DNA of 45,497 nt from an uncultured Eubacteriales bacterium. Its GTDB lineage: Bacteria > Bacillota > Clostridia > Peptostreptococcales > Anaerovoracaceae. A program made the position numbers and the translations under genes. How positions within the stretch are numbered: the first letter of the stretch is position 1; every line of letters starts with the position of its first letter. The notes beneath the pieces are model-generated. The model worked only from the letters and a program-made list of their open reading frames with translations, was not told the DNA's origin and made no database searches. Below, piece after piece: positions 11,045 through 44,122 of this stretch. Location of the stretch: contig CADADV010000016.1 in assembly GCA_902786815.1 (NCBI GenBank), positions 1 through 45,497 on the forward strand, given 5' to 3'.

Positions 11045-12163
11045 ATGAAAAAGCGAATTTACAAAGAAGACAATTACAAGATGAGCAAATGGTCCGGCGG
11101 CAACACCCGCGAGCTGGCCATTTACCCTGATAAGGCGGAGTATCTGGACAGGGATTTCCTGTGGCGGCTTTCCAGCGCAGATTCGGATCTGGAGGAGTCC
11201 TCCTTCACGAAACTGCCGGACTATGACCGCATCCTGATGGTGCTGGAAGGATCCGTCGTTCTGGCCCACGGCGAGGAACGGACTGCAAGCCTGTCGGCAT
11301 ATGAGTACGACACGTTCGATGGAGCAATCAAGACGAAGTGCTTCGGCAAGCTGATCAAGGACTACAATCTCATTTACCGCAAGGGATGCAAAGGCAGGAT
11401 GGATCTGGTCGACCTAACAGAGGAAGCGCAGCACATAGAAAGCCAGTTCGAAGGCTCCCGCTGTCTGGGAATCTACAGCGCCGAAGGATACACCGTCGTA
11501 TCCGCCGGCGGGAAAACGGATATGGTCAAAGCCGATGAACAGATGGTCATCGAACTGGAGCCGGGGGAAGCGCTGAGCCTGTCGGTCATGGGGCAGGGTA
11601 AGTGCATCCTGACCGAGGTCGCTTTCGAAAAGGAAGAGGTGCTGGATTTCTCACAGGAGGCGGCGGAAGGCAGGGACGCTCAGACGGGCGGATCTGATTT
11701 TGCGCTGGCGCTGAAGCTGTCGCTGGGAAACAACCGCTGGAGCGGCGCCATGCGGAAAATGAAGAAAAAAGGCCTGCTGTACAGTCCGGCGCTGGAGAAG
11801 AAACTGCGGTTTCTGGACAAGTATTTTATTACCGGTCTGGTGTGGTGCATCGGGATCATCCTGTGCATACTGCTTTTGCCTGCCGGCGTGAGCGGGGCGG
11901 CGGTATTCGGTCTTGTGATCGCCTTTTCCATTGTTGATGTGTTCCTGATCTCGCCGCTGATCTATCTGATGGTTCTTCCGCGGCCGATCAGCGCCCACAT
12001 CAAAAGCTCAGAGAACCTGACAGCATATGAGCAGAAAATCTTCGAGGAGCAGCTGAATTTCGATCCGCAGCAGGAACGGCTCAAGCGCAAGTACAGAGAC
12101 CGGAGCGGTGAAACGTATGACGGCATCGGGGACTTCTGGAGACGGATGAACAAGGATGATTAG
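11045..12163 (+). CDS. HutD/Ves-like cupin fused to two membrane helices
   Basis: Residues 1 to about 200 resemble the HutD/Ves bicupin family: KMSKWSGGNTRELAIYP, DFLWRLSSADSDLEESSF, then FTKLPDYDRILMVLEGSV. These proteins are linked to histidine use in some bacteria, but their activity is not settled. Family members are usually about 190-200 residues and soluble. This protein is 372 long, with two hydrophobic helices at about 258-282 and 286-311 and a charged cytoplasmic tail of about 60 residues. No hut genes are nearby. It lies 12 bases after the methyltransferase gene and may have its own leaderless promoter. Confidence 0.75.
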   Translation: MKKRIYKEDNYKMSKWSGGNTRELAIYPDKAEYLDRDFLWRLSSADSDLEESSFTKLPDYDRILMVLEGSVVLAHGEERTASLSAYEYDTFDGAIKTKCFGKLIKDYNLIYRKGCKGRMDLVDLTEEAQHIESQFEGSRCLGIYSAEGYTVVSAGGKTDMVKADEQMVIELEPGEALSLSVMGQGKCILTEVAFEKEEVLDFSQEAAEGRDAQTGGSDFALALKLSLGNNRWSGAMRKMKKKGLLYSPALEKKLRFLDKYFITGLVWCIGIILCILLLPAGVSGAAVFGLVIAFSIVDVFLISPLIYLMVLPRPISAHIKSSENLTAYEQKIFEEQLNFDPQQERLKRKYRDRSGETYDGIGDFWRRMNKDD

Positions 12164-12180: not shown

Positions 12181-13308
12181 ATGTATGAACTGATAGCAAC
12201 AGCGACCTTCGGGCTTGAAGCGGTGGTGCGCCGCGAGATCGAAGGGCTGGGATATGAAATACTGAAAACAGAAGATGGCAAGGTGACCTTTGCCGGTGAT
12301 GAGCGGGCGATCGTCCGCTCTAATTTATGGCTGCGGTGTGCCGACAGAGTGCTGCTGAAGGTCTGCGAATTCGAGGCGCTGACCTTCGAAGACCTGTTCC
12401 AGGGCATTCGTGCTTTTGCATGGGAAGACATCATCCCGGCAGACGGCAAGTTCACCGTGACGTGCTCTACGGTCAAATCCAAGCTGCACAATCCGCCGGC
12501 GATCCAGAGCGTGTCAAAGAAGGCTATCGTTGAGCGCATGGGCGGGGCGTACGGCATCGAGCAGTTCCCGGAGACCGGGGCGGAGTACACGGTCAAAGTC
12601 ACGCTCCTGAAGGACCGGGCTACGGTGACGATCGATACGAGCGGCACGGGACTCCACAAGAGAGGTTACCGCACGGCGCCGGTCGATGCGCCCATGAAGG
12701 AGACACTGGCGGCGGCGCTGGTGTTATTGAGCTTTTATAGGTCCGGGCGCGCATTGGCCGACCCTTGCTGCGGCAGCGGGACTATCCCCATCGAAGCAGC
12801 CATGATCGGCATGAACATCGCTCCGGGTCTGTTGCGGACCTTCGCCAGTGAAGGGTGGAGCCTGATTCCGCAGGAGATGTGGAAGGAAGAGCGGGCGAAT
12901 GCCTATGCGGCGATCACGGAGATGCCGGTCAGCATCTACGCGTCCGATATCGACCCAAAGGCAGTGCATGCCGCCCGTGTCAACGCAGAAGAAGCGGGGG
13001 TGGATATGTGCATCCGGTTCACCAGGGCCGATATCAGGGATCTGGATGTTTCGGCGCTGCAGGATGAGCACGGCATGATCATCACCAATCCGCCATACGG
13101 TGAGCGCATCGGCGAGCAGGATGAAATCGACGGCGTATTCAAAGCGCTGCGCAGGTTCTGCAGGGAAAACCCCGGCTGGTCGCTATTTGTGATCACCCCG
13201 GACAAGGACGCCGAGAAGAAGATCATGGGCCGCCGGGCAAACCGCCGCCGCAAACTGTACAACGGGAATATAGAGACAACGTATTATCAGTTCCACGGAG
13301 AAAAGTAA
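12181..13308 (+). CDS. THUMP-domain RNA guanine N2-methyltransferase (RlmL/YpsC-like)
   Basis: The 375-residue protein has an N-terminal ferredoxin-like and THUMP region (about 1-155) and a Rossmann methyltransferase domain. The SAM site is DPCCGSGTIPIEAA, and the catalytic motif is TNPPYGERIG, which is the NPPY type used for amino-group methylation. This matches the single-domain RlmL N-half and B. subtilis YpsC, which modify 23S rRNA, probably at G2445. It starts 18 bases after the previous gene. Its stop shares a base with the next ATG (TAATG), so the two are coupled. Confidence 0.9.
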   Translation: MYELIATATFGLEAVVRREIEGLGYEILKTEDGKVTFAGDERAIVRSNLWLRCADRVLLKVCEFEALTFEDLFQGIRAFAWEDIIPADGKFTVTCSTVKSKLHNPPAIQSVSKKAIVERMGGAYGIEQFPETGAEYTVKVTLLKDRATVTIDTSGTGLHKRGYRTAPVDAPMKETLAAALVLLSFYRSGRALADPCCGSGTIPIEAAMIGMNIAPGLLRTFASEGWSLIPQEMWKEERANAYAAITEMPVSIYASDIDPKAVHAARVNAEEAGVDMCIRFTRADIRDLDVSALQDEHGMIITNPPYGERIGEQDEIDGVFKALRRFCRENPGWSLFVITPDKDAEKKIMGRRANRRRKLYNGNIETTYYQFHGEK

Positions 13309-14405
13309 TGAGAGAAGTTGGAATTCAGTGTACGATCGGACCGTCCTGCAACGATCCGGAGATACTGGCAGAGATGATGAACGCCGGCATGGCAGGGGCA
13401 AGGATCAACCTGTCCCACGGCAGCGCCGCATCTCAGGAAGAGAAGCTGATCAGCTTCCGGCGTGCGGCCAGGATGAGCGGCACGGAGGAAGCGTCTATCA
13501 TGTATGACCTCAGGGGACCGGAGATCCGTATCAAGGAGATCCCCGGCGGCGTGACGTTCGCGGGAACCGGGGAGACCCTTGTGCTGCGGTGTGAGGACGA
13601 AGAAGAGACGGACCCTGTGCAGCCGCCGGAGCACGACCCTTACGGAAATGAATGGGGCAGCTACGTCAACCAGATCATCCGCATCAATTACGAGGACCTC
13701 TGCGACGAGGTGAAGGTCGGCACGCAGATCCTCATCGACGACGGCAGGATCAGCCTCACGGTTGAGAGCGTGCGGGGACAGGATATCGTCTGCTATGTGG
13801 ACCGCGGCGGCAGGATCGCCAGCCGCAAAGGCGTCAACGTTCCGGATGTGAAACTGCAGATGGACTACCTCAGCGACAGCGATATCGAGGATATCCTGTG
13901 GTGCGTCGATCACGATGTGGATTACATTGCAGGTTCTTTCATCCGGCGGGTGGAGGATGTCCGCGCGATCCGTCAGGTCCTCGATGAAAACGGAGGAGAG
14001 CATGTTGGCGTCATCGCCAAGATCGAGTGCAAAGAAGCCCTCGGCAATCTGGAAGAGATCATGAAAGAAGCCGACCAGATTCTCATTGCCAGAGGCGACA
14101 TGGGAGTGGAAATCGGCTTTGAGAAAGTACCGGCGCAGCAGAAGCGCATCATCCGCAAGTGCCGGGAGATGGGCATGGCGGTCATCATCGCGACCCAGCT
14201 CATCGAGTCCATGACCGAGAATCTGACGCCGACCAGGGCGGAGGTATCCGATATCGCCAACGCTGTTTTTGACGGCGCAACCGATCTGCTTGTCACAGGC
14301 GAGACTGCAACGGGCAAGTATCCGGTGCAGGTCGTCCGGCAGATGGCGAAGATCATCGACCAGGCGATCCAGGACGCGCAGAAATACGGCGACGAAATAC
14401 TGTGA
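13308..14405 (+). CDS. Pyruvate kinase-family protein lacking the C-terminal domain
   Basis: Pyruvate kinase turns phosphoenolpyruvate and ADP into pyruvate and ATP. This 365-residue protein keeps the TIM barrel and the inserted B domain. Visible active-site parts are ARINLSHGS (R32, N34, S36, H37), IAKIECKEAL (K238), ARGDMGVE (D264) and ATQLIESM. It ends just after the barrel, where normal enzymes (470-590 residues) continue into the allosteric C domain. The barrel signature reads FDGATDLLVTGETA rather than the usual MLSGETA. It may be an unregulated kinase or a repurposed one. The position next to an rRNA methyltransferase gene, away from glycolysis genes, does not help decide. Confidence 0.85.
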   Translation: MREVGIQCTIGPSCNDPEILAEMMNAGMAGARINLSHGSAASQEEKLISFRRAARMSGTEEASIMYDLRGPEIRIKEIPGGVTFAGTGETLVLRCEDEEETDPVQPPEHDPYGNEWGSYVNQIIRINYEDLCDEVKVGTQILIDDGRISLTVESVRGQDIVCYVDRGGRIASRKGVNVPDVKLQMDYLSDSDIEDILWCVDHDVDYIAGSFIRRVEDVRAIRQVLDENGGEHVGVIAKIECKEALGNLEEIMKEADQILIARGDMGVEIGFEKVPAQQKRIIRKCREMGMAVIIATQLIESMTENLTPTRAEVSDIANAVFDGATDLLVTGETATGKYPVQVVRQMAKIIDQAIQDAQKYGDEIL

Positions 14406-14424
14406 TCGCAGGAGACACCGATCC

Positions 14425-15894
14425 ATGAAACTCGAAATCAACCGAAACGACAAAACACCTGTCTACATGCAGATCGCAGGGCAGATCAAAAACATGCTCC
14501 ATACGGGGGAACTTACGGATGGCTATATGCTGCCGTCTGAGCGCACGCTGGCGAAGGAACTTGGCGTGCACCGGAACACCGTGACCAGGGCTTACGGAGA
14601 ATTGAAGAGCGAAGGGCTTCTGGATTCTTCTCAGGGCAGCTGCTACAGAGTGCGGTTCGGACGCAGCGCGGAAGACAATTCCCCTGACCGGAGAAAAAAC
14701 GTCAACTGGGAAGCTGCCGTGAAGCAGGAGTACGACGAATTCATCAGCGACTTCGATGAGCTGTACAGCGAGAGTTTCGATCCCGCATATATATCCTTTG
14801 CCGGGGGCGTAGCGGCGCGGGAACCATATCCGCCGGAGGAAATCGCCGCCGTATTCGAAGAGATGTTCCGCAGCAGCGGCGATAAGGCGTACTTCTACGT
14901 GCCGTATCAGGGCGATCCGGAACTGATCCGGGAGATCGTCAAATATATGGCGTCCATCGGCATCCGGACAAAGCCGTCCAACATACAGATCTTTTCGGAG
15001 AACAACCAGGCGCTGGATTTCATTCTGCAGCTTATGCTGTCGCCGGGAGACGGGGTCATCGTCGATGAGGTCATGGCGTCCGATGTGTACAGGACGATTG
15101 AGCTGGCAGGCGGGAAGCTCATCACGGTACCTTCCGATGAGCACGGGATGATCACGGACCACCTGGATAAAGTCATCGAGACCAGCAAGCCAAAGTTCAT
15201 CTATGTAGACTCCAGCTTCAACAACCCCAAAGGAACGGTGCTGAGTCTGGAGCGGCGCCGGAAGATCCTCGAACTGTCCTATCAGTACCGGATCCCGGTC
15301 ATCGAAGACGATGAGAGCTCGGAGATCTACTACGGCGAACGGCCGCTGCCGTCGATCAAATCCATGGATCACGGAGACAATGTCATCTACATGTACTCCT
15401 TCTCGCTGAACATGGTGCCCGGCATCGGCGTGTCTTTCGTGGCAGCGGACAGGAAGATCATCGAACAGTTTTCGAACATGGTGTCCCTGCGCGTCGCCAA
15501 CCCGGACTGGGCGGCCCAGATGGTCATGCTCCAGTATATGAAGAAAGGAATCTTCCAGGAACGACTCGCGGATTTCCGGAGCATCTGCAAAAGCAAACGG
15601 GACCGGATGTGCAGGAGGCTGGATCAGCTCGCCGGGCGATACGGGCTGCAGTACACCAAACCGGAAGGCGGCGTGTACCTCTGGGTGAAGCTGCCGGAGC
15701 ACATGGACTCGCGGGATCTGCTGCGGCAGGCACAGAAGAAGGGACTGACCTTCATGCCCGGCTACGTGTTCTTCCCGCGAAAACAGATGGGCGCACGGTA
15801 CTTCCGGCTCAACTTCTCCTATCCGACGGAAGAGGAGATCGAGAAGGGGATGGACATCCTCGAAGATTGCCTTTGCAACTGGCACAAGAAATAA
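14425..15894 (+). CDS. MocR-type regulator with degenerate aminotransferase domain
   Basis: The 489-residue protein has a GntR winged helix (1-75, LPSERTLAKELGVHRNTVTR) joined to a fold-type I aminotransferase domain. The ATG at 14425 follows AGGAGA by about nine bases. In MocR/GabR proteins the PLP lysine sits in a FSKTL-type motif followed by an arginine that holds the phosphate. Here the segment reads YSFSLNMVPGIGVSF, so the lysine is L328 and the arginine is glycine. The usual DDY reads DDE (295-297). The aspartate D295, the NPKG turn (N267) and the carboxylate-binding arginine R461 are kept. It probably cannot form the internal PLP aldimine and may bind an amino acid directly. It lies 119 bases upstream of the arc operon, which it may control. 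Confidence 0.88.
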   Translation: MKLEINRNDKTPVYMQIAGQIKNMLHTGELTDGYMLPSERTLAKELGVHRNTVTRAYGELKSEGLLDSSQGSCYRVRFGRSAEDNSPDRRKNVNWEAAVKQEYDEFISDFDELYSESFDPAYISFAGGVAAREPYPPEEIAAVFEEMFRSSGDKAYFYVPYQGDPELIREIVKYMASIGIRTKPSNIQIFSENNQALDFILQLMLSPGDGVIVDEVMASDVYRTIELAGGKLITVPSDEHGMITDHLDKVIETSKPKFIYVDSSFNNPKGTVLSLERRRKILELSYQYRIPVIEDDESSEIYYGERPLPSIKSMDHGDNVIYMYSFSLNMVPGIGVSFVAADRKIIEQFSNMVSLRVANPDWAAQMVMLQYMKKGIFQERLADFRSICKSKRDRMCRRLDQLAGRYGLQYTKPEGGVYLWVKLPEHMDSRDLLRQAQKKGLTFMPGYVFFPRKQMGARYFRLNFSYPTEEEIEKGMDILEDCLCNWHKK

Positions 15895-16013: not shown

Positions 16014-17012
16014 ATGGCAGTAAATCTCAGAGGAAGAAGCTTTTTGACACTCATGGACTTCACACCGGAAGAAATTCGTTATCTGCTGGACCTGGCCCAC
16101 GACCTGAAGGCCAAGAAAAGATCAGGTATCGTAGGCGACAGCCTCAAGGGTAAGAACGTCGTTCTGCTCTTTGAGAAGACATCCACAAGAACAAGATGCG
16201 CATTCGAAGTAGGCGCGATGGACGAGGGCGCCGGCGTCACATTCCTGGACAGCAAGTCATCACAGATGGGCAAGAAGGAATCACTCGAAGACACCGCTAA
16301 GGTTCTCGGAAGATTCTATGACGGAATCGAATACAGAGGATATGATCAGAAGGTCGTTGAAGACCTGGCGAAGTACGCAGGCGTTCCGGTATGGAACGGA
16401 CTGACAGACGTTGACCACCCGACACAGATCCTGGCTGACCTGCTCACCATCGAGGAGCACGTTGCAAAGCCGCTGAACAAGTGCAAGGTCGTCTTCGTAG
16501 GCGATGTCAGAAACAACATGGCGTACGCATGGATGTACGGCTGCGCGAAGATGGGCATGCAGTTCGTAGCATACGGACCGGCAGAGCTGTGCGAGCAGGT
16601 CGATGCAGACGTCGTTGCCAGAGCTCGTGAAGTCGCTGCTCAGACAGGCGCTTCCATCGAAGTATCTTCAGATCTCGAAGCAATCAAGGACGCAGACGTT
16701 CTGTACACGGACATCTGGGCTTCCATGGGCGAAGAAGAGCAGATCCCGGAAAGAGTCAGACTCCTCACACCGTACAGAGTCACAGAGGAAATGATGGCTG
16801 CTACAGGCAACCCGGATGCAATCTTCATGCACTGCCTGCCATCCTTCCACGATTTCGAAACAACCATGGCGCAGTCACAGGAAGAAATCGGCTATGACAT
16901 CCGCGAGGTCACCGATGAAGTCTTCAGAGGACCGCAGTCAAAGGTATTCGACGAAGCAGAAAACAGAATGCACACGATCAAGGCCGTCATGGTTGCTACA
17001 ATCGGCAGATAA
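16014..17012 (+). CDS. arcB: Catabolic ornithine carbamoyltransferase
   Basis: This enzyme splits citrulline with phosphate into ornithine and carbamoyl phosphate, the second step of the arginine deiminase pathway, or runs in reverse for synthesis. The 332-residue protein has the carbamoyl-phosphate motif STRTR (residues 58-62 region), HPTQ and the ornithine-binding MHCLPSFHD. The first position in the operon, followed directly by arcA and arcC, supports the catabolic direction, hence arcB rather than argF. It uses AGA for most arginines, unlike ygiQ or the methyltransferase upstream but like tig and hup, which suggests high expression. Confidence 0.93.
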
Positions 17013-17089: not shown

Positions 17090-18310
17090 ATGATACCTGG
17101 AATCCACAACTATTCGGAAATCGGCAAACTGAACAAGGTTCTGCTGCACCGTCCGGGTCTGGAACTGGAGGCGCTGACGCCGTCCACCATGGAGAGACTC
17201 CTCTTTGATGACATTCCGTTCCTCAAGGTCGCCCAGCAGGAGCATGACAGATTCGCCGAAGTACTCAGAGAAAACGGCGTTGAAGTTGTTTACTATGTGC
17301 AGGAGACTGCAAAGGCATTAAGCACGCCGCAGCTCCAGCAGAGTCTGATCGAAGACTTCCTCGATCTTTCCCTGATCACATCCAAGGGCATGCGGGAGAG
17401 CCTGATCTCCTATCTCATGACATTCACGCCGGAAGAGATGGTAGCGAAGCTCATCGCCGGCATCAAGAAGAATGAAGTGCCGTCTGACGAAGTGCACTCC
17501 TTGATGGATCTGATCCACGATGACTATCCGTACATTTCTGATCCGATGCCGAACCTGTACTTCACCAGAGATCCGGGCGCCTGCGTGGGCGACGGCATCA
17601 ACATCCACCACATGCACACCCAGGAGAGAAGAAGAGAATCACTGCTCCTTAAATACATGTACAAGTACAACAGAGACTTCGCGACGGAAGAGAACAAGCA
17701 GTGGTACGATCTCGATCAGGATCACTCCATTGAAGGCGGAGACGTACTCGTCCTGTCAAAGGACATGGTCGCCATCGGCCTTTCCCAGAGAACGACCATC
17801 GCAGGCATCGAGCGTTTCGCGAGGAACCTGCTGGCCAAGTCCACATTCAAGAAGGTCCTCGTATTCGATATCCCGAAGACGAGAGCGTTCATGCACCTCG
17901 ACACTGTATTCACAATGGTCGACTACGACAAGTTCACGATCCATCCTGAGATCGAAGGACCGCTGGGCGTGTATGAGATCACCATGGGCAAAGGCGGCGA
18001 GCTGAAGTTCAACGCCATGAAGGACGAGCTGCAGAACATCCTGGCCCTCGAACTGGGGATCCCGGCTGTCGAGCTGATCCGGTGCGGCGGCGGAGATCTG
18101 CTGGCTGCCCAGAGAGAGCAGTGGAACGACGGCTCCAACACCCTGTGCATCGCACCGGGAACAGTTGTTACATACGAGAGAAACTATGTATCCAACGAGC
18201 TCCTCGACAAGAAGGGCGTAAAAGTCCTTTCCATTCCGAGCGCGGAGCTTTCCAGAGGAAGAGGCGGCCCAAGATGCATGAGCTGCCCGGTAAACAGAGT
18301 TGATCTGTAG
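17090..18310 (+). CDS. arcA: Arginine deiminase
   Basis: Arginine deiminase hydrolyses arginine to citrulline and ammonia in the cytoplasm. The 406-residue length is typical. Visible family blocks are LYFTRDPGA, SIEGGDVLVLS, FMHLDTVFTMVD and the nucleophile motif GGPRCMSCP, with C396 as the catalytic cysteine. AGGAGG lies before the ATG. It is the second gene of the arc operon. No arginine/ornithine antiporter gene (arcD) occurs in the window. Confidence 0.96.
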   Translation: MIPGIHNYSEIGKLNKVLLHRPGLELEALTPSTMERLLFDDIPFLKVAQQEHDRFAEVLRENGVEVVYYVQETAKALSTPQLQQSLIEDFLDLSLITSKGMRESLISYLMTFTPEEMVAKLIAGIKKNEVPSDEVHSLMDLIHDDYPYISDPMPNLYFTRDPGACVGDGINIHHMHTQERRRESLLLKYMYKYNRDFATEENKQWYDLDQDHSIEGGDVLVLSKDMVAIGLSQRTTIAGIERFARNLLAKSTFKKVLVFDIPKTRAFMHLDTVFTMVDYDKFTIHPEIEGPLGVYEITMGKGGELKFNAMKDELQNILALELGIPAVELIRCGGGDLLAAQREQWNDGSNTLCIAPGTVVTYERNYVSNELLDKKGVKVLSIPSAELSRGRGGPRCMSCPVNRVDL

Positions 18311-18339
18311 TTCTATATTGATTGAAAAGGAGTAATACA

Positions 18340-19293
18340 ATGGCAGAAAGCAAAGGTAAAATCGTAATCGCGCTGGGCGGAAACGCACTGCAGTCAGGCA
18401 AAGGCCCTGCAACAGCGGAAGCTCAGCTGGAAGTCGTTAAAAATACATGCAAACGCGTTGCGGAAATCAGCGGTATGGGATATGAAATCGCTGTCGTACA
18501 CGGTAACGGGCCGCAGGTCGGACGCATCGTCATGGCAAGTGAAGCGGCCAAGGACGTCACTCCGTCCATGCCGTTCGATGTCTGCGGCGCGATGTCCCAG
18601 GGTTACATCGGATATCACATCCAGCAGTGCCTGCGGTACGCGCTGAACATGCAGAACAGACACGTTCCGGTCGTGACCGTCGCGACACAGGTCGTTGTCG
18701 ATGAGAACGATCCTGCGTTCCAGAACCCGACCAAGCCGATCGGACCGTTCTACACGGAAGAAGAAGCAAAAGAACTGGAAAAAGAAAAAGGCTGGACCAT
18801 GAAGGAAGACGCCGGCAGAGGCTGGAGAAGAGTTGTTGCTTCCCCGAAACCTGTCCGCATCGTTGAGATCGACTCCGTGAAGCAGCTGTGGGAAGACAAT
18901 ATCGTCATCACCTGCGGCGGCGGCGGCATTCCGGTACTCGAAAGAATGGACGGTCATATGGACGGCGTTGCGGCAGTTATCGACAAAGACTTCGCAGCGG
19001 AGCTTCTGGCAGAGCAGGTCAAAGCGGATATGCTCATGATCCTGACAGAAGTGGAGAAGGTCTCCCTCAACTTCAATAAGCCGGACCAGCAGGATCTGGA
19101 TCACATGACCCTGCTTGAAGGCGTGAAATACATCGAAGAGGGACAGTTCCCTGCAGGAAGCATGCTCCCGAAGGTCGAGGCGGCCATGAAGTTCGTCAGA
19201 CAGTTCCCGAGCAAGAAGGCGATCATCACATCCCTTGACAAGGCAGTTGACGCACTGGAAGGAAAAACAGGAACAGTAATCACATTCAACTAA
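18340..19293 (+). CDS. arcC: Carbamate kinase
   Basis: Carbamate kinase makes ATP from carbamoyl phosphate and ADP, the energy-yielding last step of the deiminase pathway. The 317-residue product shows VIALGGNALQ, HGNGPQVG, ITCGGGGIPV and VIDKDFAAELLA, all standard. The ATG at 18340 follows AAAAGGAG. The in-frame TTG at 18322 lies ahead of that site and is not used. It starts 29 bases after arcA. Confidence 0.95.
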   Translation: MAESKGKIVIALGGNALQSGKGPATAEAQLEVVKNTCKRVAEISGMGYEIAVVHGNGPQVGRIVMASEAAKDVTPSMPFDVCGAMSQGYIGYHIQQCLRYALNMQNRHVPVVTVATQVVVDENDPAFQNPTKPIGPFYTEEEAKELEKEKGWTMKEDAGRGWRRVVASPKPVRIVEIDSVKQLWEDNIVITCGGGGIPVLERMDGHMDGVAAVIDKDFAAELLAEQVKADMLMILTEVEKVSLNFNKPDQQDLDHMTLLEGVKYIEEGQFPAGSMLPKVEAAMKFVRQFPSKKAIITSLDKAVDALEGKTGTVITFN

Positions 19294-19306
19294 AAGAGGT
19301 GATAAT

Positions 19307-20641
19307 ATGAAACAGACTGCGAAAGAGTTTATGTCGTCCATAGGCGTAGACAATATGCTCTATGACGAAGAAGTAGCAGCAAGTATCGCGCATGCGCGCA
19401 TGCTGAAGCAGAACAAACTGATCTCAGGAGAAGAATGCGATCAGCTGATCAAAGGTCTGAAGGAAGTTCTCGCCGACGTCGAAGCCGGCAAGGTCGAGTT
19501 CAAGGTCGAGTACGATGACATCCACGGATGCATCGAACAGGTTCTGGCGGAGAAGATCGGCCCTGTCGCGAAGAAGCTGAACTGGGCCAGAAGCGTCAAC
19601 GACCAGGTCGTGATCGACACCAGACTCTTCCTGAGGGCGGAGAACGATCTGATCCGGGAACTGCTGCAGGATCTTCTGGACACACTGGAAGCCCTGGCGA
19701 AGGAGCATGTCAACACGATCATGCCGGGATACTCCCATCTGCAGAGAGCCCAGCCGATCACGCTGGCATACCATCTGCTGGCCTACTACCAGATGTTCAA
19801 GCGGGACCTGAGAAGATTTGAAAACTGCCTGGAACGCATCAATGTGATGCCTCCGGAAGGAGGAGCACTGGCCGGAACCGTATGGGATACGGACCGGAAG
19901 AAGATGGCGAAGGAACTGGGATTCGACGGGATCCTGTCAAATGCCATGGACGGCGTTGCAGACAGAGACTTCGGTATGGAATTCATCAATGACTGTTCCA
20001 TCACCATGATGCATCTGTCCAGATTCTGCGAGGATTTGATCCTCTGGAGCTCCGTCGAGTTTGGATTCATCGAGATCGACGATCAGTTCACGACCGGCAG
20101 CAGAGTGCTTCCGCAGAAGAAGAACCTGGACGTTGCCGAGCTCATCCGGGGCAAGACCGGCAGAGTTTATGGCGATATGATCAACCTGCTCACCGTCTTC
20201 AAAGGACTGCCGATGTCCTATAACAGAGACATGCAGGAAGACAAGTACGCTATGCTGGACGCGGCCCATACCGTGGAAGCCTGCCTGAATCTGTTCGTCG
20301 AAATGATCAAGACCATGAAGATCAACAGAGGCGAGATGCAGAGAGCAGCGAAGTACGGCTACATGAACGCTACGGAACTGGCAGAGTACCTGATGGAAAA
20401 GGGAATCCCGTCAGAAGAGGTCGGCACGATCATCAGCAAGATCGTCATGTACGCCATCAACAACAACAAGCCGATCGAAGAACTGTGGCTCGACGACCTG
20501 AAGCAGTTCACACAGGTCTTCGACAGCGACGTCTACGACAAGGTCGCTATCAGAAACGTCATCGCGTCCAAGGTGTCGAAGGGATCCACTTCCTTCGAGA
20601 ACGTGCAGGCGCAGCTTGACGAGATTGCAAAAGCTAAATAA
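19307..20641 (+). CDS. Divergent argininosuccinate lyase paralogue of the arc operon
   Basis: The 444-residue protein aligns along its length with argininosuccinate lyase, including the ArgH encoded later in this window, but differs at substrate-contact sites. The SRND motif reads SVND (V97). The mobile loop [12 protein letters not shown] reads GSRVLPQKKNLD (S265, R266), keeping the first serine, taken as the general base from aspartase and crystallin numbering, and losing the second. The YNKDLQ motif reads YNRDMQ (Y305, R307, Q310). The GRF motif at the N terminus is missing. It is the last gene of the arc operon, 13 bases after arcC, with AGAGGTG before the ATG. It is probably an active lyase with changed substrate preference, though slow argininosuccinate cleavage is possible. 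Confidence 0.85.
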   Translation: MKQTAKEFMSSIGVDNMLYDEEVAASIAHARMLKQNKLISGEECDQLIKGLKEVLADVEAGKVEFKVEYDDIHGCIEQVLAEKIGPVAKKLNWARSVNDQVVIDTRLFLRAENDLIRELLQDLLDTLEALAKEHVNTIMPGYSHLQRAQPITLAYHLLAYYQMFKRDLRRFENCLERINVMPPEGGALAGTVWDTDRKKMAKELGFDGILSNAMDGVADRDFGMEFINDCSITMMHLSRFCEDLILWSSVEFGFIEIDDQFTTGSRVLPQKKNLDVAELIRGKTGRVYGDMINLLTVFKGLPMSYNRDMQEDKYAMLDAAHTVEACLNLFVEMIKTMKINRGEMQRAAKYGYMNATELAEYLMEKGIPSEEVGTIISKIVMYAINNNKPIEELWLDDLKQFTQVFDSDVYDKVAIRNVIASKVSKGSTSFENVQAQLDEIAKAK

Positions 20642-20682: not shown

Positions 20683-20727
20683 CCGGTTCTTCTCCTCGTG
20701 ACTAGAGGAGAAGAACCGGGTTTTTTT
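20683..20727 (+). terminator. Strong intrinsic terminator of the arc operon
   Basis: CCGGTTCTTCTCCTC pairs perfectly with GAGGAGAAGAACCGG (15 bp) around the loop GTGACTA, followed by GTTTTTTT. It lies 42 bases after the lyase stop codon. Confidence 0.95.
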
Positions 20728-23888: not shown

Positions 23889-23917
23889 TTGCATATTTAT
23901 GTATGCACGCGTATAAT
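23889..23917 (+). promoter_or_regulatory. carB promoter with 18-bp dyad
   Basis: TTGCAT (23889-23894) and TATAAT (23912-23917) are 17 bases apart. The dyad TGCATA-TTTATG-TATGCA (23890-23907) fills the spacer and overlaps the -35 box. Repression by an arginine or pyrimidine regulator is possible. Confidence 0.6.
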
Positions 23918-23933
23918 TATCAATATCAAAATT

Positions 23934-23966
23934 GGAAACAGGCAACATTCGTTGCTTGTTTTCTTG
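23934..23966 (+). promoter_or_regulatory. Leader hairpin, possible carB attenuator
   Basis: GGAAACAGGCAAC and GTTGCTTGTTTTC form a stem of about 12 pairs with G-U pairs and loop ATTC, running into T-rich TTTTCTTG. It lies about ten bases after the predicted transcription start and ends 24 bases before the carB ATG, the layout of an intrinsic terminator inside a short leader. No alternative antiterminator pairing is obvious. Confidence 0.5.
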
Positions 23967-23990
23967 TTGGAACCGCGCAGAGGAGGAAAT

Positions 23991-26900
23991 ATGCCGAAGA
24001 AAGAGTATCTCAAGAAAATACTGATTATCGGATCGGGCCCGATCGTCATCGGTCAGGCTGCGGAATTCGATTATGCAGGCACACAGGCCTGCAAAGCCAT
24101 CCGTGAAGAAGGGATCCAGACGATCCTCGTCAACAGCAATCCGGCTACGATCATGACGGACAAGCAGATTGCCGACAAGGTCTATATGGAACCGCTGACA
24201 GAAGAAACGGTCGAAGAGGTCATCCGAAGAGAGCGCCCGGACGGGATGCTTGCCGGATTCGGCGGACAGACCGGGCTCAATCTGGCTATGGAGATGGACA
24301 GCAAAGGCATTCTCTCCCGATATAATGTGGAACTGCTGGGCGTCAACAAGGAGAGCATAAAGAAAGCCGAAGACAGGGAGGCCTTCAAGGCTCTCATGGA
24401 AGAGATCGGTGAACCTGTGCCTGCCAGCACGATCGCCACTACCATCGAGGAATGTCACGATTTCATACAGAAAGAAGGACTTCCGGTCATCATCCGGCCG
24501 GCGTACACACTGGGCGGTACCGGCGGCGGTATTGCGGAAACCATGGAGCAGCTCGATGATCTGTGCTACAGAGGGATGGAGAGCAGCGCGATCGGACAGA
24601 TCCTACTGGAGAAGTCCGTTGCCGGATGGAAGGAAATCGAATATGAAGTCATGCGGGATGGCGCGGATCACTGCATCATCATCTGCGATATGGAAAACGT
24701 CGATCCCGTCGGCGTACATACCGGAGACAGCATCGTCGTTGCGCCGACCCAGACGATCACCAAAGAAGAAAACCAGATGCTCAAGGACGCGTCGATCAAG
24801 ATCATCCGGAGCCTCGGCATCGAAGGCGGCTGCAACATCCAGTTCGCCCTGGATCCGGACACCGGCGACTACATCGTCATCGAAGTGAACCCGCGTGTCA
24901 GCCGTTCCTCGGCACTGGCCTCCAAGGCGGCCGGGTATCCGATCGCCAGGATCGCAGCCAAGATCGCGCTGGGGTATCACCTCGACGAGATCCGCAACAG
25001 CGTGGCAGGCGGAACGGCCCTCTTTGAGCCGTCGCTGGATTACATTGTTGTAAAATATCCGCGCTGGCCCTTCGACAAGTTCAGGACAGCGTCCCGTGTA
25101 CTTGGAACACAGATGAAAGCGACCGGGGAAGTCATGTCCCTTTGCAAAAGCTTCGAGAGCGCTTTGCTGAAAGCGCTGACGTCCGTGGAAATCAAGTGCG
25201 ACGGCCTGCACACGCCGTCCGTGTCCTGCCTGGGTGATGTGGAACTGCTGGCCAAGCTGAAAGCCTGTGATGACGAGCGGATCTTCTGCATCGCAGAGGT
25301 GTTCAGAAGAGAGCTGATGACGGTGGACGAGGTGTATGATGTCACGAAGATCAATCCGTGGTTCCTCGACAAGATCAAATATCTCATCGATCTTGAAGTT
25401 CGGCTGAAAGAGGGTCCGCTGACGAAGGAACTGCTGGCCGAAGCAGAGTCCAAGGGATTCACGGACAACGATATCATCGGGCTGTCCGGCGTCCCGCGGG
25501 AAGTCATCCAGGATATCCGTATCTATAATGACATCTATCCTGTGTACAAGATGGTCGACACGAGCGGCGGACGCTCAGCGATCGCAACGCCGTATTACTA
25601 TTCCTGCTACGACAAGGGTGATGAAAACGTCATCTCCGACCGGGAGAAGATCCTGGTGATCGGTTCCGGTCCGATCAGGATCGGGCAGGGGATCGAGTTC
25701 GACTACTGCTGCGTACAGTGCGTCAATGCAGTCAGGGAACTTGGCTTCGAGGCGATCATCGCCAACAACAATCCGGAGACGGTCAGCACAGACTCAGATA
25801 TTTCGGACAAGCTGTATTTCGAGGCGCTTCATATCGACGATGTGATGAACATCATCAAGAGAGAGCGACCTCTGGGTGTCATCGTGCAGTTCGGCGGCCA
25901 GACATCCCTGAATCTGGCGCAGCAGCTGGACAGCCGTATGATCAATATTCTGGGAACATCATACAAAAATATCGACCTGGCGGAAGACAGGGAGAAGTTC
26001 AATGATCTTCTCAATGAACTGCGCATCGCGACGCCGAAGGGTTATGCGGTCACAGGAGAAGAGGAAGCCTTCAAGGCCATCGCGGAGCTCGGCTATCCGG
26101 TCGTCGTCCGTCCTTCCTACGTGATCGGCGGACGCGCCATGCAGGTCGTGTACAGCGACGAAGAACTGCTGAGCTACCTGCGGGAGGCGGTTTCCCTGTC
26201 GAAGGAGCACCCGGTCCTGATCGACCAGTATATCGTCGGAAAGGAAATCGAGGTCGATGCCGTATCCGACGGCGAAGACGTTCTGATCCCGGGCATCATG
26301 GAGCACATCGAACGAGCCGGCGTCCATTCCGGCGACAGCATCTCCGTTTATCCGGATTTCTCCATCGCCAAGGAGGTGGAGGACACGCTGGCGGTCTACA
26401 CGAAAAAGATCGCGAAAGCGCTGGACGTCGTCGGACTGGTCAACATCCAATACGCCTATGACGGCAAGACGATCTACGTCATCGAGGTCAACCCGCGTGC
26501 ATCCAGAACGGTTCCGATTTTGAGCAAAGTCACCGGCGTGCCGATGGTCAAGCTGGCAGTCGCCGCCATGCTGGGGCAGAAACTGAAGGACAGCGGATAC
26601 GGCACAGGGCTGTATCCGAAGAGTGAGAAGTACTCCGTGAAGGTCCCGGTCTTCTCCAGCGCGAAACTGACAGATATGGACATTGCTCTGGGCCCGGAAA
26701 TGAAATCCACCGGCGAGGTGCTCGGAATCGACGCCGACCTTAAGAAGGCCCTGTACAAGGGCTTTGTGGCAGCAGGCACGGCAATCCCGACAGAAGGCAA
26801 TATCTTCGCGACCATCCGGCAGGCGGAGCTGACCCCGTACACGGCGCAGATCCTGCAGGATTACATCGACGCCGGATTCAAACTGTATGTATCGTCGGAC

Positions 26901-27188
26901 AATCTGGATTTTGCAAGTCAGTACGGAATCAATGTGAATGTGATGACGTACGATACCGCCATCAAATGGATCGGGAATCATGACGCCGGCAGCGACATGA
27001 GGATCGATCTGGTCCTGAACGTGCCGGAGATGGCGAACAGCAAGGAAAACGACAGCTTCCCGGTCAGGAGAAAGTCCGTGGAGCGCGGGATCCCGACACT
27101 GACATGCATGGATACCGCAAAGGCATTCCTGGATGTGATCAAACTCAAGCAGGCAGGCGAGCAGCTGCAGTACGCCGCGCTGGAGTAA
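23991..27188 (+). CDS. carB: Carbamoyl-phosphate synthase large subunit
   Basis: The large subunit makes carbamoyl phosphate from bicarbonate, ATP and ammonia supplied by the glutaminase subunit. The 1065-residue length is full. Two homologous ATP-grasp halves are clear: GSGPIVIGQAAEFDYAG opens the first, and GSGPIRIGQGIEFDYCC the second at about residue 560. EVNPRVSRSSALASKA and EVNPRASRTVPILSK mark the two active sites. A C-terminal MGS-like regulatory domain follows. The ATG at 23991 follows AGAGGAGG. Upstream in-frame codons lie in the leader and are rejected. No carA lies in the window, so the glutaminase subunit must be elsewhere or missing. Confidence 0.96.
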   Translation: MPKKEYLKKILIIGSGPIVIGQAAEFDYAGTQACKAIREEGIQTILVNSNPATIMTDKQIADKVYMEPLTEETVEEVIRRERPDGMLAGFGGQTGLNLAMEMDSKGILSRYNVELLGVNKESIKKAEDREAFKALMEEIGEPVPASTIATTIEECHDFIQKEGLPVIIRPAYTLGGTGGGIAETMEQLDDLCYRGMESSAIGQILLEKSVAGWKEIEYEVMRDGADHCIIICDMENVDPVGVHTGDSIVVAPTQTITKEENQMLKDASIKIIRSLGIEGGCNIQFALDPDTGDYIVIEVNPRVSRSSALASKAAGYPIARIAAKIALGYHLDEIRNSVAGGTALFEPSLDYIVVKYPRWPFDKFRTASRVLGTQMKATGEVMSLCKSFESALLKALTSVEIKCDGLHTPSVSCLGDVELLAKLKACDDERIFCIAEVFRRELMTVDEVYDVTKINPWFLDKIKYLIDLEVRLKEGPLTKELLAEAESKGFTDNDIIGLSGVPREVIQDIRIYNDIYPVYKMVDTSGGRSAIATPYYYSCYDKGDENVISDREKILVIGSGPIRIGQGIEFDYCCVQCVNAVRELGFEAIIANNNPETVSTDSDISDKLYFEALHIDDVMNIIKRERPLGVIVQFGGQTSLNLAQQLDSRMINILGTSYKNIDLAEDREKFNDLLNELRIATPKGYAVTGEEEAFKAIAELGYPVVVRPSYVIGGRAMQVVYSDEELLSYLREAVSLSKEHPVLIDQYIVGKEIEVDAVSDGEDVLIPGIMEHIERAGVHSGDSISVYPDFSIAKEVEDTLAVYTKKIAKALDVVGLVNIQYAYDGKTIYVIEVNPRASRTVPILSKVTGVPMVKLAVAAMLGQKLKDSGYGTGLYPKSEKYSVKVPVFSSAKLTDMDIALGPEMKSTGEVLGIDADLKKALYKGFVAAGTAIPTEGNIFATIRQAELTPYTAQILQDYIDAGFKLYVSSDNLDFASQYGINVNVMTYDTAIKWIGNHDAGSDMRIDLVLNVPEMANSKENDSFPVRRKSVERGIPTLTCMDTAKAFLDVIKLKQAGEQLQYAALE

Positions 27189-27307: not shown

Positions 27308-28579
27308 GTGGCAAAGGAAAAGGTAGTACTGGCATACTCAGGCGGACTGGATACATCGGTCATCATGAAGTGGTTGAAGGAGAACTATGATTACGATGTG
27401 ATCGCTGTCTGCTGCAATGCAGGACAGAACGAAGATTTTAAGGCAATAGAAGAGAAGGCGATGGCGACAGGCGCGATCAAGGCAATCACTCTGGACATCA
27501 GAGAAGAGTTCATTACGGATTACATCTGGCCTACGTTGAAGGCGGGCGCGAAATATGAGAACTATCTGCTGGGAACGGCGATGGCAAGACCGCTCATGGC
27601 GAAGAGACTGGTGGAGATCGCCCAGGAAGAAGGAGCCTTCTATATTGCGCACGGCTGCACCGGCAAAGGCAACGACCAGGTGAGATTCGAATCCGCGATC
27701 CACTCGCTGGATCCTGCGATCAAGATCATCGCGCCGTGGAGAATGCCGGAATGGGAGTTCCAGTCGAGAGAAGAAATGATCCAGTATTCCCATGATCACG
27801 GAATCCCAATCAGCCAGTCCAACGCCAAGATCTACTCCAGAGATGAGAATATATGGCACATCAGCCACGAGGGCGGCGAGCTTGAGAATCCGTGGAACGT
27901 GCACTACGACACGATACACGTGCTGAGCGTTCCGCCGGAGCAGGCACCGGATGAGGTGACTTACGTCGACATCGATTTCGAACACGGGATCCCGGTCGCC
28001 GTCGACGGTGTGAAAATGGGACCGATCGAGCTGCTGACAAAGCTCAATGAACTGGGCAGCAAGAACGGCATCGGTACCATCGATATCGTTGAGAACCGTC
28101 TGGTCGGCATGAAGTCCAGAGGCGTCTATGAGACGCCGGGCGGCACGATCCTCTACGCAGCCCACGAAGGACTGGAGGAACTGATCCTCGACAGAGACAC
28201 GTCCCACTACAAGAAAATCGTAGGCGAGAAGTTCGCAGAGCTGCTCTACACAGGCCTTTGGTTCACGCCGCTGCGGGAAGCGATCTGCGCGTTTGTAGAC
28301 GTGACACAGGAGAACGTGACGGGAACTGTCAAGATGAAGCTCTACAAGGGAAGCGCTACTGTTGCTGCCAAGAAGGCGCCGTACTCCCTCTACAACGAAG
28401 AATTTGCCACATTCAGTAAGGATGAAGTATACAACCAGTACGACGCAGAAGGATTCATCAATCTGTGGTCGCTGCCGCTGAAGATCAGAGCGATCCAGAA
28501 ACAGACAGCCGAAGGAGGTGCGAAATACAGTGAAACTCTGGAAAGGAAGGTTCTCAAAGGAAGCGACTTCGTCGAGTGA
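27308..28579 (+). CDS. argG: Argininosuccinate synthase
   Basis: ArgG joins citrulline and aspartate with ATP to give argininosuccinate. The N-type ATP pyrophosphatase P-loop is [10 protein letters not shown] (S11-S17), and [14 protein letters not shown] is typical. The 423-residue length is slightly above average. The start is GTG at 27308, nine bases after AGGAGG. The ATG at 27272 lies ahead of that site. The 3' end runs 50 bases into argH. Confidence 0.95.
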
Positions 28580-29900
28580 TGAATTCAACGCCTCCATACC
28601 ATTCGATCAGCGGATGTACGAGGAGGACATCACCGGCAGCATCGCCCATGCCCGTATGCTGGGAAAGCAGGGCATCATAAGCACAGACGAGGCGGATCTC
28701 ATCATCAGGACTCTCAGCGAGATCCTGGCGGACATCGATGCCGGCAAGATCGAATTCTCCATTGAAGGGGAAGACATCCACATGAGCATCGAGCAGATCC
28801 TCACGGAGCGGATCGGGCAGACCGGAAAGAAGCTCCACACAGCAAGGAGCCGGAACGACCAGGTCGCAGTGGACCTGCGTATGTGCCTCCGCAAGGAGAC
28901 GGCCCTGATCGACGAGAAGCTGGCGGAGCTGATGCAGACCCTTAAAGATCTGGCGGAGCAGCATCAGGAAACTGTGATGCCGGGCTATACGCACCTGCAG
29001 CGGGCCCAGCCGGTAACGCTGGCGTATCATCTGCTGGCCTATTATCAGATGTTCGGCCGCGACAGAGAGCGTTTCGCAGACGGGCTGAAACGCATCAACC
29101 GGCTGCCGCTGGGAAGCGGAGCACTGGCCGGAACCACGTACAATACAGACCGGCAGTTCCTGGCTGATCAGCTGGGATTCGACAGCGTGCTCCCGAACGG
29201 GATGGATGCCGTCGCCGACCGTGATTTTGCAATAGAATTCCTGAACTGCTGCAGCATCTGCATGATGCACCTGTCAAGGTTCTGTGAGGAGCTGATCCTC
29301 TGGAGCAGCGTGGAATTCGGATTCGTGGAGATCGATGACGCGTACGCAACCGGCAGCAGCATCATGCCGCAGAAGAAGAATCCGGACATGGCGGAGCTGA
29401 TCCGCGGCAAGAGCGGCCGGGTCTACGGAGACCTGATGGCTTTGCTTACGGTATGCAAAGGCCTCCCAATGGCGTATAACAAAGACCTGCAGGAGGACAA
29501 GGAACCCGTCTTTGACGCAGCGGACACCGTGAAGAATTCCCTCGGCATATTCACCGAGATGATCTCCACCATGGCCGTCAGAAAAGAAAGCATGGCGAAG
29601 GCCGCCAAGTACGGCTACATGAACGCCACTGACGCCGCCGACTACCTGGTAGGCAAAGGCATCCCGTTCCGCGACTGCCACGAGATCATCGGCAAGATGG
29701 TGCTCTACGCGATCGGAGAGGGCAAGGCTCTGGATGAGCTGACCATGGAGGAGTTCAAGTCCTTCTCGGATGCTTTCGGCGAAGATATCTACGACGCCAT
29801 CGCCATCGAGAACTGCATCAGAGCGAAGCAGTCGGAAGGATCGACATCCTTCGACAGCGTACGCAAGCAGCTCGACGATATCGCGGACTTCACAGACTAG
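28530..29900 (+). CDS. argH: Argininosuccinate lyase
   Basis: ArgH splits argininosuccinate into arginine and fumarate. All expected motifs are intact: MKLWKGRF at the start, [38 protein letters not shown] and [10 protein letters not shown]. The GTG at 28530 is chosen because the protein then begins MKLWKGRF, and AAGGAGG (28512-28518) lies 11 bases upstream. A GTG at 28518 overlaps that site. The 456-residue protein is of normal length. The gene overlaps argG by 50 bases, an unusually long overlap that implies coupled translation. Confidence 0.95.
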
Positions 29901-30213: not shown

Positions 30214-31056
30214 ATGAGAGAACTGAATGTAACGGAAATCACGAAAGCGGTCGCGGAAATGTATGTGCACGCGAATTACTTCCTCGGGGAGGATGTCAGG
30301 GCGTGCATCAGTGAGTGCGCACAGAAGGAAGATGCGCAGCTTGCCCGCGATGTTTTTGCGTGTGTGGAAGAGAATCTGGAGATCGCTGCGGAGGGCGTAT
30401 TCCCGATCTGTCAGGACACGGGCATGGCCTGTGTGTTCCTGGATATCGGACAGGATGTGCACCTGACCGGGGGCGATCTGTATGAAGCAGTCAACGAGGG
30501 CGTCCGGCAGGGGTGCGCCGAAGGGTATCTGCGGCAGACCATTGTGGAGGACCCCTTCAGAAGGAAGAATACGGGAGACAGTACGCCGGCGGACATCAAC
30601 GTCGACATCGTGCCGGGCGAGCAGGTGAAGATCACTGTGGCGCCGAAAGGATTCGGATCGGAGAATATGAGCCGGATCAAAATGCTCACACCTGGAGACG
30701 GTGTCAGCGGGGCGGAGGACTTCATTGTCAAAACCGTGGAGGAAGCAGGCGGCCGGCCGTGCCCGCCGGTGGTTGTCGGCGTCGGCGTGGGAGGCAATTT
30801 CAATAAAGCCGCCCTCATGGCCAAGAAAGCGCTGCTGCGGCCCATGGGTGAGCATAACGAGGATCCGTTCTACCGGGAGATGGAGGAGCGTCTGCTGGAG
30901 CGGATCAACGCCCTGGATATCGGCCCCCAGGGATTCGGCGGCAACACGACTGCTCTGGCGGTCCATATCATCGCGGCGCCGACACACATCGCAGGACTTC
31001 CTGTAGCGGTAAACATCAACTGTCACGTGTCAAGACACGAGGAAACGATACTATGA
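30214..31056 (+). CDS. Class I fumarate hydratase, alpha subunit
   Basis: Two-subunit iron-sulfur fumarases interconvert fumarate and malate. The 280-residue protein matches the N-terminal half of class I fumarase or L-tartrate dehydratase alpha. Cysteines suited to ligate the 4Fe-4S cluster are C66 (FPICQDTGM), C183 (RPCPPVV) and C270 (NINCHVSRH). The next gene encodes the beta subunit, overlapping by four bases. The position right after argH suggests that it consumes the fumarate made there. Tartrate dehydratase is the alternative within the family. Confidence 0.9.
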   Translation: MRELNVTEITKAVAEMYVHANYFLGEDVRACISECAQKEDAQLARDVFACVEENLEIAAEGVFPICQDTGMACVFLDIGQDVHLTGGDLYEAVNEGVRQGCAEGYLRQTIVEDPFRRKNTGDSTPADINVDIVPGEQVKITVAPKGFGSENMSRIKMLTPGDGVSGAEDFIVKTVEEAGGRPCPPVVVGVGVGGNFNKAALMAKKALLRPMGEHNEDPFYREMEERLLERINALDIGPQGFGGNTTALAVHIIAAPTHIAGLPVAVNINCHVSRHEETIL

Positions 31057-31583
31057 GACATGAACTGAAAGAACCTTTCACAAAGGATAAACTGAAAGAC
31101 CTGCGGGCAGGGGACACGGTGCTCCTGACCGGGACGATCTATGCGGCAAGGGACGCGGCACACAAGAAACTGCTGGAGATGATCGAGAGTGGAGATAAGC
31201 TGCCCATTGAGATCGAGAATCAAATCGTCTATTACGCAGGACCGACGCCGGCAAGGCCGGGCAATCCCATTGGCTCCGTCGGCCCGACGACAAGCTACCG
31301 CATGGATGCGTTCACACCGGTGCTCCTCGCACGCGGTCTCACCGGCATGATCGGCAAGGGTCCCCGAAATGAAGAGGTGAAACAGTGCGCCGCCGAAGCG
31401 GGCGCTGTCTATTTCGCTGCCATCGGAGGGGCGGGAGCATTGATCGCCAAGAGCATCAAATCATCGGAGGTTGTTGCTTTTGCAGAAATGGGAACGGAGG
31501 CGATTCGCAGGCTGTATGTTGAGGATCTGCCGCTCATTGTCGCCTACGATGCAGAGGGAGGAGATGTGTTCGCGCGGGGCTGA
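31053..31583 (+). CDS. Class I fumarate hydratase, beta subunit
   Basis: The 176-residue protein matches the C-terminal half of class I fumarase: LTGTIYAARDAAHKKL, YYAGPTPARPG, GSVGPTTSYRMD and GMIGKGPRN. It pairs with the alpha subunit encoded just before it, sharing an ATGA overlap. The length is normal for the subunit. Confidence 0.92.
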   Translation: MRHELKEPFTKDKLKDLRAGDTVLLTGTIYAARDAAHKKLLEMIESGDKLPIEIENQIVYYAGPTPARPGNPIGSVGPTTSYRMDAFTPVLLARGLTGMIGKGPRNEEVKQCAAEAGAVYFAAIGGAGALIAKSIKSSEVVAFAEMGTEAIRRLYVEDLPLIVAYDAEGGDVFARG

Positions 31584-43344: not shown

Positions 43345-43587
43345 ATGAGAATCGATAAATTTCTGAAGAACAGCCGCATCATCAAGAGAAGAACAGTAGC
43401 AAAAGAAGCCTGCGAGCAGGGCAGGATCACAGTCAATGAAAAAATCGCCAAACCCGGAACAGAAGTCAGGCCTGGCGATATCATCCATATTCAATTCGGC
43501 AACGGCTCCCTGACAGCCAGGGTCGAAGCGCTGACCGAGTCCTGCCGCAAGGAAGACGCAGCGGATATGTATACGATCATCGAGTAA
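43345..43587 (+). CDS. rqcP: S4-domain RNA-binding protein RqcP (YabO)
   Basis: RqcP/YabO binds stalled 50S subunits and helps RqcH add alanine tails. The 80-residue protein is one S4 domain: MRIDKFLKNSRIIKRRTVAKEAC, then GRITVNEKIAKPGTEVRPGD. The order flippase-hup-rqcP fits the yabM-yabO neighbourhood of Firmicutes, but mazG, yabP, yabQ and divIC are absent here. The ribosome site is weak. The end overlaps the oppositely oriented folT gene by 11 bases. Confidence 0.88.
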   Translation: MRIDKFLKNSRIIKRRTVAKEACEQGRITVNEKIAKPGTEVRPGDIIHIQFGNGSLTARVEALTESCRKEDAADMYTIIE

Positions 43588-44122
43588 GGATCCTGCTGCT
43601 GACCGGTTTATATACATACCGGTAGATCAGCGGGATCGTGATCATCTGCACAGCGAACAGAAACGCACAGTTCGGGATCCGGCTGACGACCATCGGCCAG
43701 TAGGGCGATCCGTACATGACCGCCAGACATATGGAAGTGCCGAACAGCTTGATAATTCCGGCAACGATCAGGGACGCCAGCAGAGTCGCGAGAAAGAGCC
43801 GTTTCCCGCTCAGATTTCGCTCATAGAAGATGAAACCGTAAACGAGACCGATGATCCCCGCGATGACCGTCAGACCGGGATTGATCGCTCCAAAGGGCAT
43901 CAGAATAGCACATACGAGGTCGCCGACCATGTATGTAACAGCTGCCCACAGCGGACCGTACAGACATCCGATGAGAACGACCGGGAGAAAGTCAAATCCG
44001 ATGTGCAGGACATCGGTCGTGATTCCCAGAAACCTGCTGAAGATGAAGATGAGCGCGACCATCATAGCCATGATCACAAGCTGCAGTGTACGCTCTCTTC
44101 CTTTACTATTAGAAGACTCCAT
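43577..44122 (-). CDS. folT: Folate ECF transporter S component
   Basis: ECF S components bind a vitamin and work with a shared energising module. The 181-residue protein has about six hydrophobic helices. The folate assignment rests on the family look (FLGITTDVLHIGFDFLPVVLIGCLYGPLWAA) and, strongly, on the THF riboswitch in front of it. AAAGGAG precedes the ATG. The energising ecf genes are not in the window. This is the only leftward gene here, and its stop overlaps rqcP tail to tail. Confidence 0.88.
   Translation of the reverse strand: MESSNSKGRERTLQLVIMAMMVALIFIFSRFLGITTDVLHIGFDFLPVVLIGCLYGPLWAAVTYMVGDLVCAILMPFGAINPGLTVIAGIIGLVYGFIFYERNLSGKRLFLATLLASLIVAGIIKLFGTSICLAVMYGSPYWPMVVSRIPNCAFLFAVQMITIPLIYRYVYKPVSSRILTR

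Follow-up and report, generated by a model that had tools for sequence, protein, structure and literature searches.

An argininosuccinate lyase paralogue at the end of an arginine deiminase operon in uncultured Clostridia: a candidate succino-lyase with a putatively rebuilt carboxylate pocket

Members of the aspartase/fumarase superfamily share a catalytic loop with the signature G-S-x-x-M-x-x-K-x-N, and adenylosuccinate lyase, aspartase, fumarase and nitrosuccinate lyase carry out the same kind of chemistry as argininosuccinate lyase (ASL, or ArgH) with the same loop base. To our knowledge, none of these four enzymes has an arginine at the position that it occupies in the SRND motif of ArgH. 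A precedent for an ArgH relative working on a different amine is EDDS lyase, which we take to be the enzyme behind PDB 6g3d and other entries that carry the name argininosuccinate lyase in the PDB.

How the two carboxylates of the substrate are held has been described for the nitrosuccinate lyase CreD. According to the available text of that study, the loop base serine, a lysine and an asparagine bind the C1 carboxylate, and the C4 carboxylate is bound by Ser123, Asn93, the main chain of the second loop serine and an arginine contributed by a different subunit (PMC13411527). For ASL itself, the accessible parts of the respective papers report that the N-terminal arm docks in the neighbouring subunit (PMC2779060), that R12Q and R385C belong to the variants for which a correlation with neonatal-onset disease is listed and that R113 counts as a residue of the predicted active sites (both PMC8574183), and that R113W, an allele of a patient, is likely pathogenic (PMC12512550). 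In the literature searched for ArgH paralogues or for ArgH with a deiminase operon, outside which most subscription journals lie, no title or abstract opening listed describes a gene of the type reported below.

Gene, operon and distribution

The window, i.e. the whole stretch of 45,497 nucleotides that was analysed, stems from an uncultured Eubacteriales bacterium and contains two ArgH-type genes, the only two in the assembly, whose products are 58% identical. One is an ordinary argH; the other is an ArgH-like paralogue, in the following referred to as HL. The features needed here are:

14419..15894, + strand: MocR/PdxR-like GntR-aminotransferase regulator 5' of the arc genes (291.7 bits, below the PdxR cut-off of 320)
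16014..17012, + strand: arcB, ornithine carbamoyltransferase (TIGR00658, above cut-off)
17090..18310, + strand: arcA, arginine deiminase (TIGR01078, above cut-off)
18322..19293, + strand: arcC, carbamate kinase (TIGR00746, above cut-off)
19294..19306, + strand: gap of 13 nt between arcC and HL with the Shine-Dalgarno-like agaggtgat (from the sequence)
19307..20641, + strand: HL, ArgH-like paralogue of 444 aa lacking the N-terminal KLWxGRF arm (open reading frame with ATG start, domains, TIGR00838, AlphaFold2 model)
20683..20727, + strand: 15-bp hairpin followed by seven T, a likely transcription terminator 3' of HL (sequence read by eye)
27308..28579, + strand: argG, ordinary argininosuccinate synthase (TIGR00032, 504.7 bits)
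28518..29900, + strand: ordinary argH, with PFRxxH (argH profile, 631 bits)

The operon order is arcB-arcA-arcC-HL, and the original prediction of a full-length ArgH-like gene in last place agrees with both the reading frames and the NCBIfam naming. The HL start codon is preceded by agaggtgataat, a good ribosome site. Only nine more open codons precede the ATG (open frame of 453 aa), so the absence of the GRF start motif, which had likewise been noticed, is genuine. HL scores 507.1 bits with TIGR00838, the argH equivalog profile of NCBIfam, and lies above its cut-off of 279.5; it carries the Pfam domains Lyase_1 (PF00206, 210.8 bits) and ASL_C2, scores 80.9 bits with the NCBIfam purB profile, and lower still with those for aspartase, fumarase and nitrosuccinate lyase. 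The stem at 20683-20727 was listed by a terminator scan on the - strand only, and the number of terminators in that scan was not above that in shuffles.

Several other genes of the window deserve mention. A gene read by eye as carB (23889-27188) adjoins argG and argH, with no carA beside it, and two genes directly 3' of argH (30214-31583) are by eye the alpha and beta parts of a class I fumarase. Further away, the pyruvate kinase at 13308-14405 (365 aa) matches its profile only up to position 337 of 476 and seems to miss the C-terminal domain, 11045-12163 encodes a HutD/Ves-like domain followed by a hydrophobic-looking part, and a tetrahydrofolate riboswitch (RF01831, 44224-44340, - strand, 72 bits) precedes a membrane protein of 181 aa (43577-44122) that by eye is possibly part of a folate transporter.

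In the genus, sampled with 49 genomes, a full-length or nearly full-length HL (66-100% identical) is found in 17, and one further genome, G214, has an HL fragment at a contig end. HL lies immediately 3' of arcC and in the same direction in 16 of the 17 carriers, and the seventeenth starts at a contig end. ArcA is present in 37 of the 49 genomes. It is at least 83% identical in 18 of them, of which 17 carry HL and the eighteenth (G237) ends inside arcA; in the other 19, a sister group with a best ArcA of 65-71%, HL is absent throughout. Conservation of the gene in the arc operons of close relatives, on which the original prediction was to be judged, is seen in its own ArcA group and fails for 19 of the 37 ArcA-bearing genomes. 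We read five of these 19 sister operons, which run MocR-arcB-arcA-arcC and continue with a second arcB in two and with other genes in three; the MocR/PdxR-like gene stands 5' of arcB in these five as well as in all HL loci that reach so far. The second arcB lies directly 3' of arcC, in the slot of HL, in L168 (G221) and L176 (G127).

Two further associations were considered and dismissed. A second arc operon with an HL of its own was sought in G207, G209, G225, G227 and G234, which possess a second ArcA (54-56%), and the stretches taken from them contain no HL; an ArgH piece at a contig end of G227 is closer to ArgH (55% over 132 residues). Dimethylargininase, considered as an obligate partner of HL, is only loosely associated with it: a close gene (at least 76%) occurs in 11 of the 17 carriers, in one of them cut short by a contig end, and also in 7 of the remaining 32 genomes of the genus, including G214 with its HL fragment. 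No match to it was found in the window's genome, G206, G215, G229 and G230, and G216 has distant matches only.

Beyond the genus, the score-ordered list for 197 genomes of the family holds no HL other than the window's own, the next best match (60%) being an ArgH. The corresponding list for 297 genomes of the order holds five HL, all from the genus and the lowest at 829 bits, before ArgH follows at 675 bits, and none from outside the genus. A scan of a collection of 84,980 genomes looked for identical short peptides and may miss genomes close to that of the window; it gave 83 relatives, of which 80 were kept. Eleven of these are HL (L032-L042), with goat gut named as the source for four and Clostridia or Clostridiales named for five, and in the remaining 69 the loop is the ordinary GSSxMP(Q/H)KKNPD.

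In a tree of 69 out of 120 proteins (17 HL, 52 ArgH) the HL form a single group (SH-aLRT 100) whose stem measures 0.85 changes per site, and this group joins with 16 ArgH of the genus (SH-aLRT 99), so HL has a single origin inside the ArgH of its genus; its exact joint there is weak (SH-aLRT 82), and long branches elsewhere in the tree were flagged. Of the conditions on which the original prediction was to fall, placement inside ArgH is thus seen, but on a long stem of its own. Pairwise dN/dS (NG86, saturated pairs left out) was calculated for the 10 genomes with HL, ArgH and ArcA all in the examined stretches, and its median is 0.062 for HL (21 of 45 pairs usable), 0.066 for ArgH (16 of 45) and 0.046 for ArcA (36 of 45). 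HL is under strong purifying selection, and none of the 17 copies contains an internal stop. Over the same 45 genome pairs the median identity of HL is 0.68 against 0.81 for ArgH. The long stem, the low dN/dS and the lower identity together point to one burst of change, followed by a constraint somewhat looser than that on ArgH.

Residues lost, gained and kept

We compared 17 distinct HL (28 reading frames before copies fetched twice were removed) with 103 distinct ordinary ArgH (111 frames, from which short or identical ones were dropped). The KLWxGRF arm, present in 102 of the 103 ArgH, occurs in no HL. The arginine of SRND, found in every ArgH, is a valine in 16 HL (V97 in the window) and an isoleucine in one, the motif reading SVND, GVND or GIND, and its serine (Ser96, human Ser112) is a glycine in four of the 17. 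The second serine of the GSSxMP loop (R266 in the window), again without exception in ArgH, is replaced by arginine in 14 HL and by lysine in three; every HL orthologue has lost one arginine and gained one basic residue. In PFRxxH, whose F, R and H stand in all 103 ArgH, the arginine has become glutamate (12 HL) or aspartate (five), and F and H are kept in none of the 17. The loss of this last motif had not been listed in the original prediction, and the same holds for the changes from GYTH to GYSH (T143 to S) and from PLG to PPD/E (an acid at 184), both in 17 of 17; KNP has become KNL in 16. The differences that had been listed, V97, R266 and R307, are all there. R307 is not unusual: the exchange of K for R in YNKD was ruled out as a specificity change, since R also occurs in 10 of the 103 ordinary ArgH, and plant ASL likewise has it at this position. 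That the same changes are fixed or nearly fixed across all 17 orthologues takes the observation beyond chance.

Fourteen catalytic, ligand and neighbouring residues are kept in all HL (S11, D15, D71, H73, N98, D99, H144, S265, K271, N273, E278, Y305, Q310, K313). They include the serine base S265, which had already been noticed as kept, and the active-site residues H144, E278, K271 and N273. The full superfamily loop signature is matched by only two of the 17 HL, M having become L in 11 and the loop G being lost in four. Of 19 positions looked at HL keeps 14, against 78 of the 121 columns invariant in ArgH, and the retention of residues in HL does not clearly set the active site apart. The other 43 columns, which are not kept in all HL, are what one might expect of a decaying duplicate without function. 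We consider such decay very improbable, given a dN/dS of about 0.06, reading frames intact in all 17 copies, identical changes fixed across orthologues and, in the copy of the window, a preserved ribosome site.

By alignment, the positions lost in HL correspond to human R12, R113 and R385 (the last placed by counting from the aligned ends), and with the loss of these equivalents a dead or crippled enzyme is possible. HL might be a non-catalytic protein that serves the arc enzymes as a subunit, scaffold or sensor, comparable to the inactive crystallin form of ASL. Such a role would fit the loss of ASL-invariant residues and of the subunit-docking arm (for the arm, see the accessible part of PMC2779060), and inactive delta1-crystallin, as far as the available text describes it, would be a precedent. 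A dead protein, however, need not keep the proton-transfer residues, all of which are retained in 17 of 17 HL, and HL would have no ArgH to partner in G215 and G222, where none was found (see below); we therefore regard a non-catalytic HL as unlikely. That HL has lost the arm together with PFRxxH suggests that this motif is part of the cavity in which the arm docks.

An AlphaFold2 model of HL (pLDDT 91.8) was obtained from an alignment of 67 rows (12 HL, 55 ArgH) and superseded an earlier, poor model from 12 rows (pLDDT 55.7); Foldseek matches it to solved ASLs with a TM of about 0.9. Transferred to HL, the second loop serine of CreD falls on the position of the new R/K, and CreD Ser123 is, from profile alignment alone, probably the serine of SxND, which in HL adjoins V97. 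Compared in this way, HL appears to have preserved its pocket on the C1 and arginine sides and to have rebuilt it on the C4 side; it is conjecture that T143 and the acid at 184 also belong to the C4 pocket. Read from the sequence, the pocket looks as if it still holds an acid that is gripped differently, and its positive charge seems to have been relocated rather than removed.

Carriers without ArgG and the possible role of HL

A match to ArgG is present in 15 of the 17 HL carriers and an ordinary ArgH in 14, and in 13 HL lies on one stretch with argG or argH. The two carriers without ArgG, G215 and G222, fall in different HL subclades and are both MAGs (96% complete with 7% contamination, and 84% complete, respectively). 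In these two, neither similarity nor profile search (the latter run on 10 chosen genomes) found an ArgG, and nothing except HL lay over the ArgH profile cut-off. Genes for CYTH, trigger factor, ClpP and ClpX, which in the window stand 3' of carB-argG-argH-fumAB, follow directly 3' of HL in G215 (named by eye). In G222 two genes stand between HL and the CYTH-trigger factor-ClpP-ClpX genes, a dimethylargininase-like one and one for an antiporter of the arginine/ornithine type; these two (L205:8692-10950) are both below their NCBIfam cut-offs, the dimethylargininase-like gene with 386 bits against 450. Relatives of the fumarase genes occur 3' of argH in several HL carriers, not in G226, and they are not found 3' of HL in G215 and G222. 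The argC profile had no match over cut-off in any of the 10 genomes; matches below it in G190 (153 bits) and G211 (139 bits) could be divergent or broken argC.

Two carriers without ArgG and ArgH argue against a plain argininosuccinate lyase, and the best single argument for a catabolic role is that the synthesis block was lost twice, separately, while HL stayed. HL could nevertheless still be an argininosuccinate lyase, namely an isozyme for catabolism in which R/K266 replaces the SRND arginine and which either cleaves argininosuccinate or forms it out of fumarate and arginine. Its 507 bits with the argH equivalog profile (cut-off 279.5), the arginine-side residues and serine base kept in all 17, the argG or argH on the same stretch in 13 carriers and the exchange of one arginine for one basic residue in each orthologue would all agree with such an isozyme. 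It would, on the other hand, have to work without the equivalents of human R12, R113 and R385, in two carriers with no ArgG found to supply its substrate, and in 14 of 17 beside an ordinary ArgH; we rate it as rather improbable.

The reading that we prefer, and to which we give about even weight, is that HL works as a succino-lyase whose carboxylate pocket has been rebuilt and whose substrate has been altered. The scheme that we infer for its activity, direction of reaction, substrate, pocket geometry and oligomer would run as follows. An argH was presumably duplicated inside the genus, the copy came to stand behind arcC, and it would have been remodelled along one long stem and afterwards held by strong purifying selection. 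As a lyase of the aspartase/fumarase type, HL would take a proton with the loop serine S265, hold and activate the succinyl part of the substrate with H144/E278 and K271/N273, and release fumarate or a close analogue from an amine that may still be arginine-like (S11, N98, Y305, Q310 and K313 being kept). The pocket of the far (C4) carboxylate has probably changed, with R97 gone and a new R/K at 266, and near by in the sequence motifs the change of T143 to S and the new acid at 184 may contribute; docking of the N-terminal arm would also have been lost. The natural substrate is probably not argininosuccinate made by ArgG but a related N-substituted succinate from arginine catabolism, possibly a citrulline- or arginine-derived fumarate adduct. 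Alternatively, the reaction may run as an addition to fumarate.

More tentatively, HL may be the first succino-lyase of arginine fermentation rather than of synthesis, which would join or split fumarate and arginine, or a breakdown product of it, without ArgG. Were this true, the deiminase pathway would be linked to the fumarate pool, and the HL pocket would show a carboxylate-binding basic residue moving between loops. A new substrate, if real, would imply an unknown branch in the arginine fermentation of these Clostridia, and G215 and G222, in which neither ArgG nor ArgH was found, offer a clean setting to look for it.

Comparison with known systems

Since HL passes the curated NCBI cut-off for argH it will be named argininosuccinate lyase, yet it fails four features fixed in at least 102 of 103 ordinary ArgH. 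These four features were tested and are absent, and we accordingly do not file HL as argininosuccinate lyase despite its ArgH-family fold and catalytic residues. With ArgH (TIGR00838) and delta-crystallin it shares the fold, the domains, the serine base, the His-Glu pair, the loop lysine and asparagine, and the tyrosine, glutamine and lysine of YNxDxQEDK. Unlike them, it is devoid of KLWxGRF, the SRND arginine, the second loop serine, GYTH, PLG and PFRxxH, and unlike ArgH it stands last in an arc operon and is kept in two assemblies without ArgG. Its match to EDDS lyase (the 6g3d group) reaches 144 bits against 363 bits to the best ordinary ASL, to which it is far closer. The other members of the aspartase/fumarase superfamily are set apart by the low scores of HL with their profiles, and by its nesting within ArgH in the tree. 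Finally, arcABC operons run arcB-arcA-arcC with carbamate kinase in last place, whereas the HL operon adds a fourth gene of the ArgH type.
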